Origin: Promethearchaeota archaeon
Lineage (GTDB): Archaea > Asgardarchaeota > Lokiarchaeia > Sigyniarchaeales > SOKP01
NCBI GenBank assembly: GCA_016840545.1
Contig: JAEOSD010000005.1
Span: forward strand, 1-42,729
Direction of reading: 5' to 3'
Length of the DNA stretch: 42,729 bases
Part shown: piece by piece, positions 17,082 to 36,494 of the stretch
Layout of the letters: every line of letters starts with the position of its first letter
How positions within the stretch are numbered: the stretch's first letter is position 1
Notes under the pieces: model-generated
What the model was told of the DNA's origin: nothing
What the model saw: only the letters and a program-made list of their open reading frames with translations
Database searches by the model: none
Position numbers and translations under genes: made by a program

Positions 17082-17978
17082 ATGGGAGTTAAAAATATAT
17101 TAAAAAGGATTTTTACTAAAGAAAAGAAAGTAGTTATCACGGGATTAGATTCCTCAGGAAAAACAACTCTTGTATCATTTCTACAAAATGGAACTTTCAT
17201 TGAACATACACCAACCATGGGAAAAGAATTGACTACGATGGAAGTCCAAGGAATTCGTATTAATATTATGGATATGGGTGGTCAAAAGGATTTTCGTGAA
17301 TTATGGCTTCATGAAATGTCAGATGCAGAATGCGTAATATTTATGATTGATGCTTATGCTAGAGAAAGATTTAACGAGGCAAAAGATGAGTTGTGGAAAT
17401 TATCTTCTGTATTAAAGAAAAAAGCTTTAATTATTTTAGCTAATAAATGTGATTTACAACCCATTGCCCAGATAAGTGAAATTATTGAAGCCCTCAATTT
17501 ATCGAAAGTCTCATCATTTGAAATTTTACCAATTTCCTGTAAAACTGGTTATGGAATTGTTCCTGCATTTATGAAAATCTATTATAAATTAACTGGTAAA
17601 CAGCTAACCAAAAAACTTAATATAAGAGGTATTACTGTATTTAATCAAGGAGGTATTCCATTGACTTCTTCTGATAACCAACAAATTTTACAAGGTGGAT
17701 TATTTTCAGCTATTAATAGTTTTGTTCAAGAATCATTTAATTCTGAATTAAACCAGTTGAAAATGGGTGAGAATTTAATTATTTTCAAGCGTTCAAAACA
17801 TTTATTAGGTTCGATAATAGTAAATGAAACCGATAATGTAAATCTTAAAGAAGCAGAAGAAGGATTAAATGAATTATTATGTCATTTAGAACATATGTGT
17901 CCTGAACTCGAAGAAGAAGAATTAGATCAATTAAAAATAGAATATCTTGTTAAACAATACGCGTCTAATCTTTTATAA
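17082..17978 (+). CDS. Arf/Sar-like small GTPase with longin-like C-terminal extension
   Basis: GLDSSGKTT (G1), PTMGKE (G2), MDMGGQ (G3), NKCDL (G4), SCK (G5); residues after ~178 (GITVFNQGGIPLTSSDNQQILQGGLFSAINSFVQESFNSELNQLKMGENLIIFKR) match the longin-like pattern. Confidence 0.85.
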   Translation: MGVKNILKRIFTKEKKVVITGLDSSGKTTLVSFLQNGTFIEHTPTMGKELTTMEVQGIRINIMDMGGQKDFRELWLHEMSDAECVIFMIDAYARERFNEAKDELWKLSSVLKKKALIILANKCDLQPIAQISEIIEALNLSKVSSFEILPISCKTGYGIVPAFMKIYYKLTGKQLTKKLNIRGITVFNQGGIPLTSSDNQQILQGGLFSAINSFVQESFNSELNQLKMGENLIIFKRSKHLLGSIIVNETDNVNLKEAEEGLNELLCHLEHMCPELEEEELDQLKIEYLVKQYASNLL

Positions 17979-25516: not shown

Positions 25517-28500
25517 TTAAAAATTCTTGATTTTTTTAAATTTTACTTTTGCTGAGAGCAGTATTATTACACCTAGAGACGCAATAATAAATAGTAGGTT
25601 ATAGCCTGGGATACCATTTCCATTTTCAACCTCAAAGTAATTAGAATAAACAAGAGTAAGTGAGTAGTTACCAGTTGTCATCCCGAGCTCATAAAGAAAC
25701 GTGCTATTTAGTAGTAGACCTGAATTTTTCTCATACCACGCAATACTACCTGGAAAATCTAAATCTTCTAACACCCATACTTCTACCAATCCAAAATCAG
25801 GAAGATTATAGGTTAATTCATCTGATACGTTAAACGTATGGTCTGAACCAGCAACCGATATGGGAATTTCATCACCGAGAGAACTATCTGTAAAGATCCA
25901 TAGAGGTGTGTGTGTTCCGTAACCAAAACTAAACCCTCCAAAAGAATCAGTCATAATTCTTGTTTGACTATCTACATCCCAATAGCCCTTTTGGAGAAGA
26001 ATACTTCCGTTATACAATGAATAATCAAGATGAAAGTTTCTTTCTGAAAGAGATGAGTATACATATTGCATAAGAAAAGTTTGGCCAAATATCGCAAATG
26101 TGTAGTTATGTATCAGGCCATCAAATAGTATTATCTTATGGAGTGGTATTAATTTCAATTCAAGATTATCTACTGTAAAAGTCTCTCCAAATACTGGTGG
26201 GGCATATGCCTTAAAACTATAATCTCCATAGTCAGGCGTCCATAGATAATTAATGGTTTGGCTGGTCCCAGAAGGAAAATTTGATATATGAATAGAATCT
26301 ATCAAAATATCGTCTAAATAGAAGAAAAGATCTACGTTCGATTCGTCACTCGTTCCAGTATTAGTAATTGTAGCATTAATAGAGTAAGTATTAGAAATTG
26401 TAGGAAACTCAGGAACTTCTAATGAAACTCTTAAATCATGAGGTATAACTACTCCTGTACCCATAATCACTACGTCATCTATTAACCAACCTCTATAATA
26501 ATTATAAAGATCGTCAACAGTATCAAATCGAAACATTATTTGCACTGATGGATTCCCAGTATAAGCAGAGATATCAATAGATACTTTTTCCCATGGAAGA
26601 ACGTAAGTTTCATCAGTTTGATAAATGAGATCCCAATTAATTCCGTCAATGGATATATATACATAAGAAATATCATAACCACCTCCCTCTCCTTCTCGCC
26701 AATGGTAAAATTCTAAGAAAGCCACACCGATAGTCATTAAGTTAATAGAGGTTGATGTTAGATTTCCTATTTCTCGAAAACCTGTTTCATAGTTTCCAGT
26801 AGATTCATTACCGAACCACATAGAATGAATCGGTGAATGATATGGATTTACCCATGCACTACTATTGTCAGTTAAATGCCAAAACCCTGTTATGGATACC
26901 CACTGAGATAAGCCGCTTTCAAAGTCATCGTAAAAAATTGGACCCATTATATATAATATCTCAATAGCATAATTGTTAGATCTATACGTTTCTCCAGGCA
27001 CCGGAGGCACATATGCCGTGAAATTATAAACCTCATAATCTGTAGGTGTCCATGGATAAATAATAGTTGTATTTGTTCCACTTGGAAGGCTAGGTATAGT
27101 AATTGAATGAACTAGAATATTATTGAGCAACAAATCAAAATCTACATTAGTTTCACCACTAACACCATTATTAATTACTATAGCTTCAATCTGATAAGAA
27201 TTGTATATTTTTGGATTTGTCGGAGCCTTTAAATTTAGTTCTAATTCGTGATTAAAAATCATAAATGTTGCATTTACATATCCTGGAGTTGCTTCTGGAA
27301 CATCAGGTGATTCTTGGGAAATTTGTTGGAGAATTCCCCCTAAATATCTTTCAAGTTTAAATGATGATATTGTTCCAATAATATCAGCTGGACCAATCTC
27401 AAGATAAAAAAATACATCGTTATTTGCGTTATAAAAAGAAACAAAATCTGTAAAATCAAATGCCATAAATTCTGGAAGTAGGTTATTAACATCAGCATCA
27501 TAATGAGGAGTTATGGAATCTAATGGAGCACTATGAGGACCTACTCCTAATGTGACTATATCACTCATTCTAGTAGGCGCAGAACTAAATTTCCAAGTAG
27601 CAATTATATTAGGATTATAATCAATTCGATCCATTAGATAAAGTATAAATTGGCTAGGATGAGCTCCGAATTCGTCAAACGCATCGTAAGTTAACCAATA
27701 ATATCCATTATCCATCCAGTTAACTCCCCATGAATTAACCACTCTAAAGGCTCCAAGATCACTTCCTTCTGAAATGGAATCATCATATCCCACAATACAT
27801 TGTGCATGATTTAATCCACCTCCATTATATTCATCCGAAGATAGTATATAATCTCCTGAAGTATCATTCAATCCATTGTAAAATTGATATGCATCAATTC
27901 CAATAGTAACTGGAGTTCCACTGTCTAGTATACTTTTGATAACATCAATGGTTGAATTACCTATATAAGTAATTAGAGTATAATCAAGGGGTCTATGATA
28001 AGGGGCTTTTCGCCAGGCATCTTCATCTCCCCAACTATTAACATCCATATCATCATAAGGCATAGTACTTAAAGTTGCTACACCCCATTCTTTTATAAGT
28101 TGAGCAGTCTCTACTGGCATAGAGCCATAATCATAAGCAGCTATTTTATTATATGACCAAGCTGGACTTAATAAGTAGTTTGGATTTCCAGAACTTGCAT
28201 CCCATCCATAATCTTTTGCTTCTAAATATCCAAATGCATAATATACATTAGCCCATGAGGTGCAAGAACCTTGCAAACCTTGATCTCCAACTACCGGAAA
28301 GTATATTTCTGTTGAAATATCTGCTGTAGCTTTATAACCTCGTTTGTAATCTGATACTAATCCTATTAATGATAATTTTCCAATAAGAGAATCCAAATCC
28401 TCTGCTGAGGGTTTAGAATATCCTGTACCATGACCATCGATAATATCATTGTAACTTCTTCTTGTTTCCTCAAGCACTCCATCATTTTTCATCCCCTCAA

Positions 28501-28738
28501 CTTTTTCTTTTGTTATATACTCTGCTAAATATTGTTTACCGTTTAGTGTATAGATAAAAGTATGTCCTAAACTCTTATAGTTTAATATATCTTGACCAGT
28601 AAATTTAAAATCGTTATTAGAAGAATTATAAAAGCTAGAAGGACTATTAAATGAAAGCAATATTATTAAAGTAATGCATAGCAATAAAGAGATGCTTTTA
28701 AACTTCCTTTTTAATCTAATCATTTTTAATTTCGCCAT
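25517..28738 (-). CDS. Secreted papain-like (C1) cysteine peptidase with CARDB-like domains and C-terminal TM anchor
   Basis: VVGDQGLQGSCTSWANVYYAFGYLEA (catalytic Cys), GGLNHAQCIVGYDD (His), FRVVNSWGVNWMDNGYYWLTY (Asn); two CARDB-like units (ending PGETYRSNN / FGETFTVDN); DDFESGLSQWVSITGFWHL jelly-roll-like insert; C-terminal IPGYNLLFIIASLGVIILLSAKVKFKK. Confidence 0.9.
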   Translation of the reverse strand: MAKLKMIRLKRKFKSISLLLCITLIILLSFNSPSSFYNSSNNDFKFTGQDILNYKSLGHTFIYTLNGKQYLAEYITKEKVEGMKNDGVLEETRRSYNDIIDGHGTGYSKPSAEDLDSLIGKLSLIGLVSDYKRGYKATADISTEIYFPVVGDQGLQGSCTSWANVYYAFGYLEAKDYGWDASSGNPNYLLSPAWSYNKIAAYDYGSMPVETAQLIKEWGVATLSTMPYDDMDVNSWGDEDAWRKAPYHRPLDYTLITYIGNSTIDVIKSILDSGTPVTIGIDAYQFYNGLNDTSGDYILSSDEYNGGGLNHAQCIVGYDDSISEGSDLGAFRVVNSWGVNWMDNGYYWLTYDAFDEFGAHPSQFILYLMDRIDYNPNIIATWKFSSAPTRMSDIVTLGVGPHSAPLDSITPHYDADVNNLLPEFMAFDFTDFVSFYNANNDVFFYLEIGPADIIGTISSFKLERYLGGILQQISQESPDVPEATPGYVNATFMIFNHELELNLKAPTNPKIYNSYQIEAIVINNGVSGETNVDFDLLLNNILVHSITIPSLPSGTNTTIIYPWTPTDYEVYNFTAYVPPVPGETYRSNNYAIEILYIMGPIFYDDFESGLSQWVSITGFWHLTDNSSAWVNPYHSPIHSMWFGNESTGNYETGFREIGNLTSTSINLMTIGVAFLEFYHWREGEGGGYDISYVYISIDGINWDLIYQTDETYVLPWEKVSIDISAYTGNPSVQIMFRFDTVDDLYNYYRGWLIDDVVIMGTGVVIPHDLRVSLEVPEFPTISNTYSINATITNTGTSDESNVDLFFYLDDILIDSIHISNFPSGTSQTINYLWTPDYGDYSFKAYAPPVFGETFTVDNLELKLIPLHKIILFDGLIHNYTFAIFGQTFLMQYVYSSLSERNFHLDYSLYNGSILLQKGYWDVDSQTRIMTDSFGGFSFGYGTHTPLWIFTDSSLGDEIPISVAGSDHTFNVSDELTYNLPDFGLVEVWVLEDLDFPGSIAWYEKNSGLLLNSTFLYELGMTTGNYSLTLVYSNYFEVENGNGIPGYNLLFIIASLGVIILLSAKVKFKKIKNF

Positions 28739-32523: not shown

Positions 32524-33096
32524 TTATTTAACTCTTTCATAAGCCCACTGTGCCTTATCAGCTAATCCAAGCGCCTCGTATGCTTTACCAAGATAAAGAA
32601 ATCCTTCAGGATAATCAAATTTTTCCTTAACTAATTTGAACAAAAAGTTTATTGCTAAATCATATCTCCCTTTTAAATAATTTACTTTGCCTTTAAGAAA
32701 AGTAATCATCCTGCCTTTCTCGGTCGATATATTTTGTTCATTATGCATTTCTAATCTAGATAATGCATAATCATATTCTTTTTGTTCAATCAAAATTTCA
32801 ATCGATTCAATAAATTTCATAAATGCTATTTGATCAGTAACCTTTTCTATTTTTTTTACCGTTTCTTTCTTATTTTCTTGTTCAAATGCTTTCTGTTTTT
32901 CCAATTCTTTCTTGTTAATATAAGTTTTGAATTTGTCAATAATAATTTGAGGGTATGGCTCATTACACAATGGGCAGTTTGAAGAGTGGAGTAACCATTC
33001 TCGTAAACAATCACTATGAGTCGGATGACCATTTGGGCATTCTTGAAAACTGTCAACTTCATTCATCCCCAAATGACAGATAATACAATTAACCAT
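32524..33096 (-). CDS. RING-H2 zinc-finger protein with C-terminal TPR-like region
   Basis: C4-x2-C7-x12-C20-x3-H24-x2-H27-x2-C30-x10-C41-x2-C44 (NCIICHLGMNEVDSFQECPNGHPTHSDCLREWLLHSSNCPLC) is C3H2C3; C-terminal YPEGFLYLGKAYEALGLADKAQWAYERVK TPR-like. Confidence 0.8.
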   Translation of the reverse strand: MVNCIICHLGMNEVDSFQECPNGHPTHSDCLREWLLHSSNCPLCNEPYPQIIIDKFKTYINKKELEKQKAFEQENKKETVKKIEKVTDQIAFMKFIESIEILIEQKEYDYALSRLEMHNEQNISTEKGRMITFLKGKVNYLKGRYDLAINFLFKLVKEKFDYPEGFLYLGKAYEALGLADKAQWAYERVK

Positions 33097-33221: not shown

Positions 33222-34790
33222 ATGGCAATAAATATTGACCCACTCTTCAAAGAATTATATACCAAATTCTTGGAAATTGATGATGATCTCGAAGCAGTGA
33301 TTGTTTCTGATCATGAAGGATTTGTAATTGCGGGAGAAAAGAAAGTTAGTGTAAATCTAGAATTAGTGTCGGTTCTAACTGGATTAATCCAACCTATTTT
33401 AGAACGTATGAGGAACGAATTCGCCTTTAAGAAATTTGGAACTGCAAGTTTTGATACGGAAAATTACCGTTTGTTGTTTATCTCCATTGATGAAACTACA
33501 ACTTTAAGTATAGTTCTAAATACTCTAGGTTCAATTGATAAAATTAGTCCATATGGATATTTTCTAGCAGAGAAGACCTCCCAAATATTAAATGCAAAAG
33601 ATGGAGACCTCATTCAATTAACTATACCGAATTTTGAAGTTGAAGCAAGTCTTTCTGAAAATTCTGGTAGGATAAAAGATCAAATATATCAAATGAGACT
33701 AGATTCAGGTGGTAAGTATAAATTTAAATGTATATTTATCGGTGATCATGAAGTAGGTAAAACATCAATAATTCGACAATTTGTAGAAAAGAAATTTTCT
33801 CAAGATTACCGTGCTACAATTGGGCTTAACATCTTGTCTCATTCTATCGAACTATATGAAAATGAAATAACATTTAATTTGTGGGATCTGGGTGCCCAAG
33901 AATTTTTTAAAAGGTTCCGCAAAACTTATTATACTGGTGCTCAAGCAGGATTTATTATGTTTGATGTGACAAATAGGGACTCCTTTTTGAATGTAAAAGA
34001 TTGGTATCATGAATTTAGAAATATATTAAAATATAAGCAACTCCCGATTGTCATTATTGGAAATAAGATTGATCTAACTGATCAGAGAGTTGTTGACTAT
34101 AAGGAAGCAGTGGAAGTAATAAACGACTTATCTAGTGAGCATTATGAAGGTGGGATTTCATATATAGAAACTAGTGCAAAAACAGGGGAAAATGTAGGGG
34201 ACGCATTCAGTTTAATTGCTTATCATTATATAATGAGAAGTATAGAAATAGAGGAACAACGTTTAAGGCTAGATTTGATGAATATATTAAATTCGATCTT
34301 AGATAAAAATGAAAAACTTGTAATTTCTTTTATCACTGAAAATCCTCTTTGGAGTCCTGGTTTACAAATTTTAACAGAAATTAATAAGCTTTGTGATTGT
34401 GAGAAGGTAAAAGACGATAGAGAGAGAAGATTATATGAATATTCAAATGGTTTAGTTATAAAGAATTTTCTCTTTGATGATTTTGATATTTCTGATTCTG
34501 ATGGAGTATTTATAATTTTTGATGCCCGAGAAAAGGAGCATATTGAACCAAAATGGAAAGAAACTGTAATAAAAATTATAAATAACATTACTGAGAATAA
34601 AGTAGCCCTAATAGGAATTAGAGTATCTGAAGCTATTGATTGGTCTCAACTAATGGAAGAATTTAATATAAATAAATACATAGAGAATAAAATGACTTCT
34701 TTACTATTTTTTAAATTTGGTATTGAATATCGCCTTGAAATCTATGATCAACTGGAAGTAATGTTAAACTCAATCAAAGATTTAAGTTAG
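33222..34790 (+). CDS. Roadblock-like domain + Rab/Ras-like GTPase + C-terminal domain (copy 1)
   Basis: LEAVIVSDHEGFVIAGEKK...FAFKKFGTASFDTENYRLLFISI (roadblock-like); GDHEVGKTS, WDLGAQE, GNKIDL, ETSAK (GTPase); then ~170-aa C-terminal domain. Confidence 0.88.
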   Translation: MAINIDPLFKELYTKFLEIDDDLEAVIVSDHEGFVIAGEKKVSVNLELVSVLTGLIQPILERMRNEFAFKKFGTASFDTENYRLLFISIDETTTLSIVLNTLGSIDKISPYGYFLAEKTSQILNAKDGDLIQLTIPNFEVEASLSENSGRIKDQIYQMRLDSGGKYKFKCIFIGDHEVGKTSIIRQFVEKKFSQDYRATIGLNILSHSIELYENEITFNLWDLGAQEFFKRFRKTYYTGAQAGFIMFDVTNRDSFLNVKDWYHEFRNILKYKQLPIVIIGNKIDLTDQRVVDYKEAVEVINDLSSEHYEGGISYIETSAKTGENVGDAFSLIAYHYIMRSIEIEEQRLRLDLMNILNSILDKNEKLVISFITENPLWSPGLQILTEINKLCDCEKVKDDRERRLYEYSNGLVIKNFLFDDFDISDSDGVFIIFDAREKEHIEPKWKETVIKIINNITENKVALIGIRVSEAIDWSQLMEEFNINKYIENKMTSLLFFKFGIEYRLEIYDQLEVMLNSIKDLS

Positions 34791-34928
34791 AACTATTCTT
34801 TATCCTTCATTTTCTGTAGAAAATAATGATTAATAAATAACCATTTTTAAAAATATGGGTTGCTATATTATTTGTAAGTATAATTTAAGATTAAAATTGA
34901 TCTAAATCAAAAAAAAGGGGCGCTTTAA

Positions 34929-36494
34929 TTGGTTATTAAAAGGAATAAACTTTTTCGTGAGTTATTAAGTAGTTTTTTAGATAGATTCCAGCAACTGGAA
35001 GCAGTTATTATATCTGACGTTGAAGGTTTAATTATCGCTGGAGAAAAAAGAAAAGATATTAGTAGTGACCTTGAAATTGTTTCCGTCTTGACTACTTTAA
35101 TCAATCCAGTACTTGAAAGAATAAGAAATGAGTTTGCGTTTCAGAAATTTGGTACCGCTAGTTTTGATACTGACGAATATAGATTATTATTTGTTTCAAT
35201 TGATCAAGAAAGAATTTTAAGCCTAATTTTGACAAGCATGGCCTCTATTGACGAAATATCACCTTATGCTTATTTCCTCACCGAGAAGAGTGCACAGATA
35301 TTACACGCTCAGGAAGATGATTTACTTCAATTAGCCATTCCAAATTTTGAGGAGGAAGTGGACAGACATGAAAAACTTAAACAACAAATATACCAAGTCG
35401 GTGATCTTGAAGAAAGGGGAGCATATGCATTTAAATTTGTTATTGTCGGGGATCATGAAGTTGGTAAGACCTCTATTATTCGTAGATTTGTAGAACGGAA
35501 GTTTTCTTTTGATTACCGTCCCACCATCGGTTTAAATATTTTAGCACATACGTTTACCTTTCAAGGAAATGAAATTAATTTAACTTTATGGGACATAGGA
35601 GCTCAGCAATACTTTAAAAGGTTCAGAAAGTTGTATTATTCTGGAGCTGAGGCAGCTTTTATTGTTTATGATATCACGAATCGCGAATCATTTGATAATG
35701 TTAAAAATTGGTATGATGAAATAACAGAATATATTAAAGAAGAAGAGATACCTATGGTGATTGCTGGTAATAAAACAGATTTAGAGGATCATAGAGTAGT
35801 TTCATTTCAACAGGGAGAAGATTTGGCAAATGCTCTTTCAGAAAAGGGATTATCTTATACAGAAACGAGCGCTCTAGATGGTACCAACGTTTCAGATGCT
35901 TTTAAGTTGATTGCATATCATTATATATTAAGAATAAAGCAAAAAGAAAAAGATATGATTAAAGATGAATTAGCAGATCTCATAATTTCCACCTTGAAAA
36001 AGCTTATTATTCTAGAATTATCCTTTATTACTGAAAACTTGAATTGGAGTCCTGGTTTCCATACTATAACCGAGTTAGACAAACTAGGTGAATATTCAAC
36101 AATTAAAGACAGTGCTCAAGAACAGTTATTTGCATATAAAAATGGTTTAATTATTAATAATTTTCCTTATGATAATTATAATCTTGCAAATACAGACGGT
36201 GCGTTTGTAATTTTTGATGCACGGGATAAAGAAGATATTGATCCTAAATGGAAAGATATTTTAATTGATATAATTAAAAAAATAAGAAAAAAGAGAGTTA
36301 TAATCGTTGGATTGAGAGTTATTGATGACAGTAATTTATCTCGGCTAATGGAACAATTCCATATCGAAGAAGATTTAGAGGAAAAGTTAGTTTCCATTCT
36401 ATTTCTTAAAATCGGTCTTGACTTTAGAGAACAGATGTTTGAAAATCTTAAAGTAATGCTAAATGCTATTGTAAATACCAGGGCAATAAAGTAA
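34929..36494 (+). CDS. Roadblock-like domain + Rab/Ras-like GTPase + C-terminal domain (copy 2; TTG start)
   Basis: LEAVIISDVEGLIIAGEKR...; GDHEVGKTS, WDIGAQQ, GNKTDL, ETSALDG; same length and layout as copy 1. Confidence 0.88.
   Translation: MVIKRNKLFRELLSSFLDRFQQLEAVIISDVEGLIIAGEKRKDISSDLEIVSVLTTLINPVLERIRNEFAFQKFGTASFDTDEYRLLFVSIDQERILSLILTSMASIDEISPYAYFLTEKSAQILHAQEDDLLQLAIPNFEEEVDRHEKLKQQIYQVGDLEERGAYAFKFVIVGDHEVGKTSIIRRFVERKFSFDYRPTIGLNILAHTFTFQGNEINLTLWDIGAQQYFKRFRKLYYSGAEAAFIVYDITNRESFDNVKNWYDEITEYIKEEEIPMVIAGNKTDLEDHRVVSFQQGEDLANALSEKGLSYTETSALDGTNVSDAFKLIAYHYILRIKQKEKDMIKDELADLIISTLKKLIILELSFITENLNWSPGFHTITELDKLGEYSTIKDSAQEQLFAYKNGLIINNFPYDNYNLANTDGAFVIFDARDKEDIDPKWKDILIDIIKKIRKKRVIIVGLRVIDDSNLSRLMEQFHIEEDLEEKLVSILFLKIGLDFREQMFENLKVMLNAIVNTRAIK

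Follow-up and report, generated by a model that had tools for sequence, protein, structure and literature searches.

Two adjacent genes in a Lokiarchaeal contig are tandem paralogs of a three-domain family, in which an N-terminal roadblock domain and a Rab-like GTPase domain are followed by a predicted GTPase fold without nucleotide motifs. In most members the G3 glycine at Ras position 60 is replaced by alanine, and in nearly all of them the switch I residue at Ras position 33 is arginine. The family, its architecture, the derived and maintained status of Ala-60 and Arg-33, and the association with a RING-TPR gene are established. For the function of the alanine, we tentatively favor a GTPase that leans toward the open "state 1." The anatomy and conservation are demonstrated, and the mechanism would be transferred from H-Ras G60A by analogy. 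Throughout, "the window" is the whole 42,729-nucleotide stretch of DNA that was analyzed.

Tandem paralogs with three domains

The two proteins are 53 to 54% identical over their whole length, and PF00071 is matched in copy 2 with an E value of 1.1e-48. The initial annotation described them as Rab-like GTPases. Rabs are indeed the closest relatives of the GTPase domain, but the roadblock and pseudo-GTPase domains on either side of it were overlooked, and the account of the proteins also missed the near-invariant switch I arginine and the neighboring RING-TPR gene. The features are collected in Table 1.

Table 1. Positions of the two GTPase genes, their domains and motifs, and the divergent neighbor in the window
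Feature	Position	Strand	Basis or remark
RING-H2 + TPR protein, divergently paired with copy 1	32524..33096	-	zf-RING_2 E 2.3e-7
GTPase gene, copy 1	33222..34790	+	522 aa: roadblock, GTPase, pseudo-GTPase; ORF and 104-homolog family
Roadblock/LC7-like domain, copy 1 (residues ~1-145)	33222..33656	+	AF2 order H-E-E-H-E-E-E-H
GTPase domain, copy 1 (residues ~165-345)	33714..34257	+	PF00071 E 3e-43
P-loop GDHEVGKT, copy 1	33741..33764	+	translation
Arg197 (Ras-33, switch I), copy 1	33810..33812	+	Arg in 103/104 members
G3 WDLGAQ, copy 1; Ala225 = Ras Gly60 / Arf Gly70	33882..33899	+	translation
Predicted motif-less GTPase-fold domain, copy 1 (residues 352-522)	34275..34787	+	AF2 pLDDT 91.9, pTM 0.88
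GTPase gene, copy 2	34929..36494	+	521 aa, TTG start; ORF; architecture as copy 1
P-loop GDHEVGKT, copy 2	35448..35471	+	translation
G3 WDIGAQ, copy 2	35589..35606	+	translation
Predicted pseudo-GTPase domain, copy 2	35970..36491	+	alignment

All named relatives come from Candidatus Lokiarchaeota/Lokiarchaeia MAGs, the nearest being YT2_053 (88% identical for copy 1 and 97% for copy 2). We found no match in the phage records searched, and promoter-like sites did not exceed the chance level. In the window's own genome (2.9 Mb), copy 1 has 48 matches, almost all of which fall in GTPase domains. The full-length AF2 model of copy 1 has a pLDDT of 75.9; Foldseek with this model was swamped by Rab matches and was uninformative on the other domains.

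The best solved relative of the GTPase domain is the Thorarchaeota Rab 7ezb (E 2.5e-32; Foldseek TMt 0.88). The PDB sequence list was topped by Thor-Rab, Rab14, Rab5, Rab1, and Rab7, and the Foldseek list was likewise topped by Rabs. The RabF motifs are matched only partially, as judged by eye, and the C termini (KDLS and RAIK), which come after the extra domain, lack the prenylatable cysteines of Rabs. Of the features that define the Ras superfamily, G1 GxxxxGK[ST], the G2 Thr, G4 NKxD, and G5 SA[KL] are present; the invariant glycine of G3 DxxG is not, being alanine in both copies. Aligned to solved Rabs, G3 reads D57-L/I58-G59-A60-Q61. GDHEVGKT and WDL/IGAQ were both found in the annotated frames of both ORFs. 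The G3 coordinates first given (33885-33899 and 35592-35606, from codon 222) are right for D-L-G-A-Q and D-I-G-A-Q but leave out the Trp, which is codon 221, so that the full WDxGAQ starts at 33882 in copy 1 and 35589 in copy 2.

The N-terminal domain of copy 1, searched alone against Pfam, gave no match. Of 25 members, 14 matched Robl_LC7, the best of them at 1.3e-5, and a profile of the N terminus matched the Roadblock/LC7 structure 7yh1 with an E value of 3.9e-4. The arrangement is that of the Asgard RB-GTPase fusions, in which an N-terminal roadblock is joined to a GTPase, and not that of the Rags, in which the roadblock follows the GTPase.

No credible Pfam family was found for the C-terminal domain of copy 1. 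Foldseek matches to this domain were mostly Rab, Arf, and Ras structures, including Arf1, with a few flavodoxin-like matches also in the list; Rab3B (E 9.8e-6) and the Asgard Arf HodArfR1 (TM scores 0.69/0.65) were the top matches. The profile of the domain matched Rnd1 over b4-a3-b5 (E 6.7e-5). GK[ST], DxxG, and NKxD were absent from the equivalent places in all 19 sequences inspected. By sequence and structural model, the domain is a GTPase fold that appears to have lost every nucleotide motif. We also considered it as an internal duplicate of the GTPase domain; hhalign gave no match, and any relation would be ancient. The domain occurs in only two copies in its own genome. Within the order it is found in f1, f2, and f4 only and is absent from f3, including the single-contig 4.4-Mb genome G088; a search of 22 other Asgard genomes located it in f2 and f4 only.

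Conservation of the G3 alanine and the switch I arginine

We assembled 104 non-redundant Lokiarchaeal homologs from the scan of named relatives, 228 genomes of the phylum, and fetched regions. At Ras-60, 95 of them have alanine, 6 glycine, and 3 serine, and the alanine is written with all four of its codons (GCA 33, GCT 32, GCC 16, GCG 14). Thr35, Asp57, the G1 Lys, and the N, K, and D of G4 are invariant in all 104 sequences, and Gly at Ras-59 and Gln61 are each present in 103. The initial annotation had proposed selection rather than decay at Ras-60, a proposal that a canonical DxxGQ norm among homologs would have undone. The norm is alanine, and the four codons, the intact residues of the other G motifs, and the glycine of the f4 outgroups described below all bear the proposal out. 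The GTP-binding residues and the catalytic Gln, whose retention it had also noted, are kept in the family.

On a tree built without the tested columns (total length 28.8), we counted 6 parsimony changes at Ala225, 1 at Arg197, 8 at His176, and 20 at Glu177, compared with 10.5 for the median column of the GTPase domain and 0 to 1 for the catalytic and most nucleotide-binding residues. Columns with an alanine majority had a median of 10 changes, versus 6 at Ala225, and by number of changes the Ras-60 column ranks at the 39th percentile among GTPase-domain columns. Ala-60 is therefore selected yet not inviolable; the catalytic residues are under tighter constraint, and Ras-60 has returned to Gly or gone to Ser several times.

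Two further oddities that had been annotated did not survive this comparison. Gly at Ras-59 belongs to DxGGQ, the ordinary Arf/Rag form, of which the window's genome alone has 20 pattern matches; therefore, the one unusual residue of G3 is Ala-60 (Arf 70). The His-Glu P-loop is far less conserved: Ras-12 is His in 83 and Ras-13 Glu in 66 of the 104. His-12 is partly conserved, changing about 8 times, whereas Glu-13 changes faster than the domain median and by this measure shows no conservation. The same two positions vary freely in other GTPases of the genome (GN, FK, PT, PG, and others). Coupling between the His-Glu pair and GAQ was also considered and rejected: in an independent-pairs test, for which the informative pairs were too few, Ala-60 showed no association with His-12 or Glu-13. 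Judged on the alignment, the stronger family signature is Arg at Ras-33, found in 103 of 104 members; seven outgroup rows read L, L, K, I, V, I, and V at this position.

Two divergent members, L100:2803-4365 and L104:2884-4467, read WDIGSQ and YDIGAH, respectively. In the latter, His stands in place of the catalytic Gln. Sar1-type GTPases likewise have His for the catalytic Gln.

Polarity of Ala-60 and Arg-33

The f4 relatives share all three domains with the family, their third domain matching by profile at an E value of about 1e-15. Full reading of three f4 genomes showed G[DE]QNVGKT, NYLPTLG, and WDFGGQ and no Arg at Ras-33. Because these three-domain relatives carry WDFGGQ without the arginine, Ala-60 and Arg-33 are derived. 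In family f2, the corresponding motifs are DYRSTIG and YDIGAH. The members with Gly or Ser at Ras-60 nest inside the family on the tree: one copy-1 subclade combines GDKAVGKS with WDLGGQ, WDVAGQ, or WDVGAQ, and three further Gly/Ser cases are scattered. From these sequences we infer that a roadblock-GTPase fusion came first and was followed by the third domain with GGQ still in place, then by Arg33 and Ala60, and last by His12.

DxGAQ outside the family

A DNA pattern for WD[LIVFM]GAQ matched about 115 times in the 228 phylum genomes, against 4 matches for the reversed pattern. The motif thus exceeds chance expectation, and most of the matches are family members. In the window's own genome, W-D-x-G-A-Q occurs only at the two sites described here, and WDxAGQ is matched 17 times. 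The matches outside the family include those in f12/g27, of which all five examined were HypB, an unrelated GTPase class.

Among small GTPases that do not belong to the family, DxGAQ turns up only sporadically: in G054, G082, G123, G126 (where the P-loop is broken), and G136, and in an Arf-like protein of f3/g13. The Arf-like GTPase carries WDLGAQ with GLDNSGKT in three genomes of this one genus (L136, L137, and G091) and may represent a second small lineage in which the same alanine is fixed. An unrelated WDIGAQ GTPase in a 430-aa frame (L142, G136:C129) has, by eye, a second degenerate GTPase-like domain with GNEEVQKF where a P-loop would be expected; its resemblance in this combination to the family is apparently convergent. 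The window itself also encodes a second kind of GTPase at 17082-17978 (+); it is Arf-like (PF00025 2.7e-35), reads DMGGQ, and has a C-terminal extension of about 130 residues.

A divergent RING-TPR gene accompanies the family

Wherever it was found, in about 38 distinct loci that include those of deep-branching g2 members, the RING-TPR gene is divergent from the first GTPase gene. Past this gene are thiD-thiN and thiC; isocitrate/isopropylmalate-dehydrogenase-like and GNAT genes are often found downstream. In genome G109, the two family genes (L105:3642-6152 and L105:11523-14213) encode proteins of 837 and 897 aa with C-terminal TPR arrays, and no RING gene adjoins them. The fusion of TPRs to the GTPase in this genome is a hint of joint action by the TPR protein and the GTPase. 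The RING-TPR protein is a likely functional partner of the GTPase, possibly an E3-like one, and their pairing suggests that small GTPases and ubiquitin-type machinery are connected in Asgard archaea.

A paralogous GTPase lineage (L049, L050, L053, L087, L088, L091, and L095-L097) has conserved neighbors of its own, of about 461 and 795 aa, which had no Pfam match in the two examples scanned. Elsewhere in the window, 25517-28738 (-) encodes a probably exported protein of 1,073 aa that combines a papain-family protease domain with CARDB repeats.

Possible mechanisms

H-Ras G60A is mostly in state 1, and its intrinsic GTPase activity is drastically impaired (PMC4867591; also PMC8848853). By this analogy, a domain with Ala-60 and bound GTP would mainly occupy the open state 1, in which affinity is low and hydrolysis slow, and closing and hydrolysis would require a partner. 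The non-standard nucleotide cycle proposed in the initial annotation would rest on the same analogy. We regard the state 1 reading as the most economical and give it a probability of about 0.4. Nucleotide binding would be retained, because Lys16, Thr17, Thr35, NKxD, and SA[KL] are intact. Closing and hydrolysis would come about only through the partner, for which the candidates are the protein's own roadblock dimer, the pseudo-GTPase domain, and the RING-TPR protein encoded next door. The roadblock dimer could be a homodimer or a heterodimer of copies 1 and 2, comparable to the MglB-MglA and Rag complexes. Arg197 might help to stabilize the transition state in cis; this role is a guess, since the residue lies one position before MglA Arg53 and Thor-Rab Arg37, the "intrinsic finger." The protein would then act as a conditional switch that does not cycle freely, and it would probably be a scaffold linked to a RING-dependent pathway. 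That the entire family is a switch of the G60A type, GTP-bound yet open by default, closing and hydrolyzing only when complexed with the roadblock and dead-GTPase domains of the same protein and perhaps with the RING-TPR protein, with the switch I arginine compensating, seems to us somewhat unlikely.

Several observations speak against the state 1 reading: the Ras-60 column is more variable than those of the catalytic residues and has changed to Gly or Ser several times, DxGAQ is sporadically present in unrelated Asgard GTPases whose other motifs are normal, and the alanine is preceded by Gly59, where Ras has Ala59, so that local backbone freedom may be restored. On present evidence, it is about as likely that Ala-60 is near-neutral beside Gly59, with the switch II hinge keeping one flexible glycine, an ordinary nucleotide cycle, and a motif that marks a lineage and no mechanism. 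The GGQ, AGQ, and GSQ members found within the family beside GAQ ones, with all else intact, are consistent with this, as are the six changes at Ras-60, which place the column outside the range of the catalytic residues. The sporadic, convergent DxGAQ motifs of other Asgard GTPases with normal P-loops also support it, since they show that proteins of other kinds can tolerate the substitution. However, a single base (GCN to GGN) would restore the glycine, yet alanine is kept in 95 of 104 members and across all f1 genera that have the gene, whereas glycine is found in the f4 outgroups and in almost every other GTPase that the genome encodes.

The impaired hydrolysis of Ras G60A (PMC4867591) would also suit a GTPase domain that does not cycle, serving as a structural module locked with GTP or GDP, or as a nucleotide sensor, in a scaffold made of the roadblock and pseudo-GTPase domains, and the chain already holds one dead GTPase domain. 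We consider this improbable because the catalytic Gln, for which a locked module would have no use, is present in 103 of 104 members, and Thr35 is kept in all 104. The idea that the motif arose by decay or misassembly in a pair of recent duplicates is refuted: nothing beyond the oddness of the motif itself speaks for it, and the ORFs are intact, about 100 homologs from independent genomes carry the motif, and the Ala codon varies synonymously.

Comparison with known systems

In the open-access literature, we found nothing relevant on a natural Gly-to-Ala change in DxxG, which is weak evidence of absence, and no description of the three-domain form, the GAQ signature, or the RING-TPR pairing, which we provisionally regard as new. 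The glycine at Ras-60 is regarded as invariant, and its replacement in Ras blocks the active switch conformation. Alanine at this position across about 100 genes of an archaeal lineage near the eukaryotes makes the usefulness of a "state-1" GTPase design testable, together with the idea that roadblock and pseudo-GTPase domains supply in cis what the switch lacks. H-Ras G60A has the identical change but is engineered, whereas that of the present family is natural and conserved and is accompanied by Gly59 instead of Ala59 and by the switch I Arg33.

The closest architectural relatives are the RB-GTPase fusions of the Asgard archaeon MK-D1, which include an operon pair predicted to heterodimerize through the roadblock domains (Tran et al. 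2024, PMC10933270). They share the N-terminal roadblock fused to a Rab/Rag/Arf-like GTPase; the family described here adds the third, motif-less domain of predicted GTPase fold and the DxGAQ form of G3. Arf and Rag proteins (WDxGGQ) have the same W-D-x-G-x-Q form of switch II, and the Rags are also roadblock-bearing and dimeric, but the roadblock is N-terminal and not C-terminal here, the sequence is nearer to Rab, and alanine replaces the second glycine. Rnd/RhoE and other pseudoGTPases resemble the C-terminal domain, whose profile matches Rnd1, in having a GTPase fold without nucleotide motifs. Rnd proteins retain nucleotide binding, whereas the C-terminal domain here is without any motif. 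MglA-MglB likewise pairs a roadblock with a Ras-like GTPase that has a switch I arginine; here the two are in a single chain, and the arginine lies one position before MglA Arg53, as aligned through Thor-Rab Arg37. The chain of roadblock, live GTPase, and putatively dead GTPase also resembles a one-polypeptide counterpart of Rag-Ragulator or MglA-MglB.
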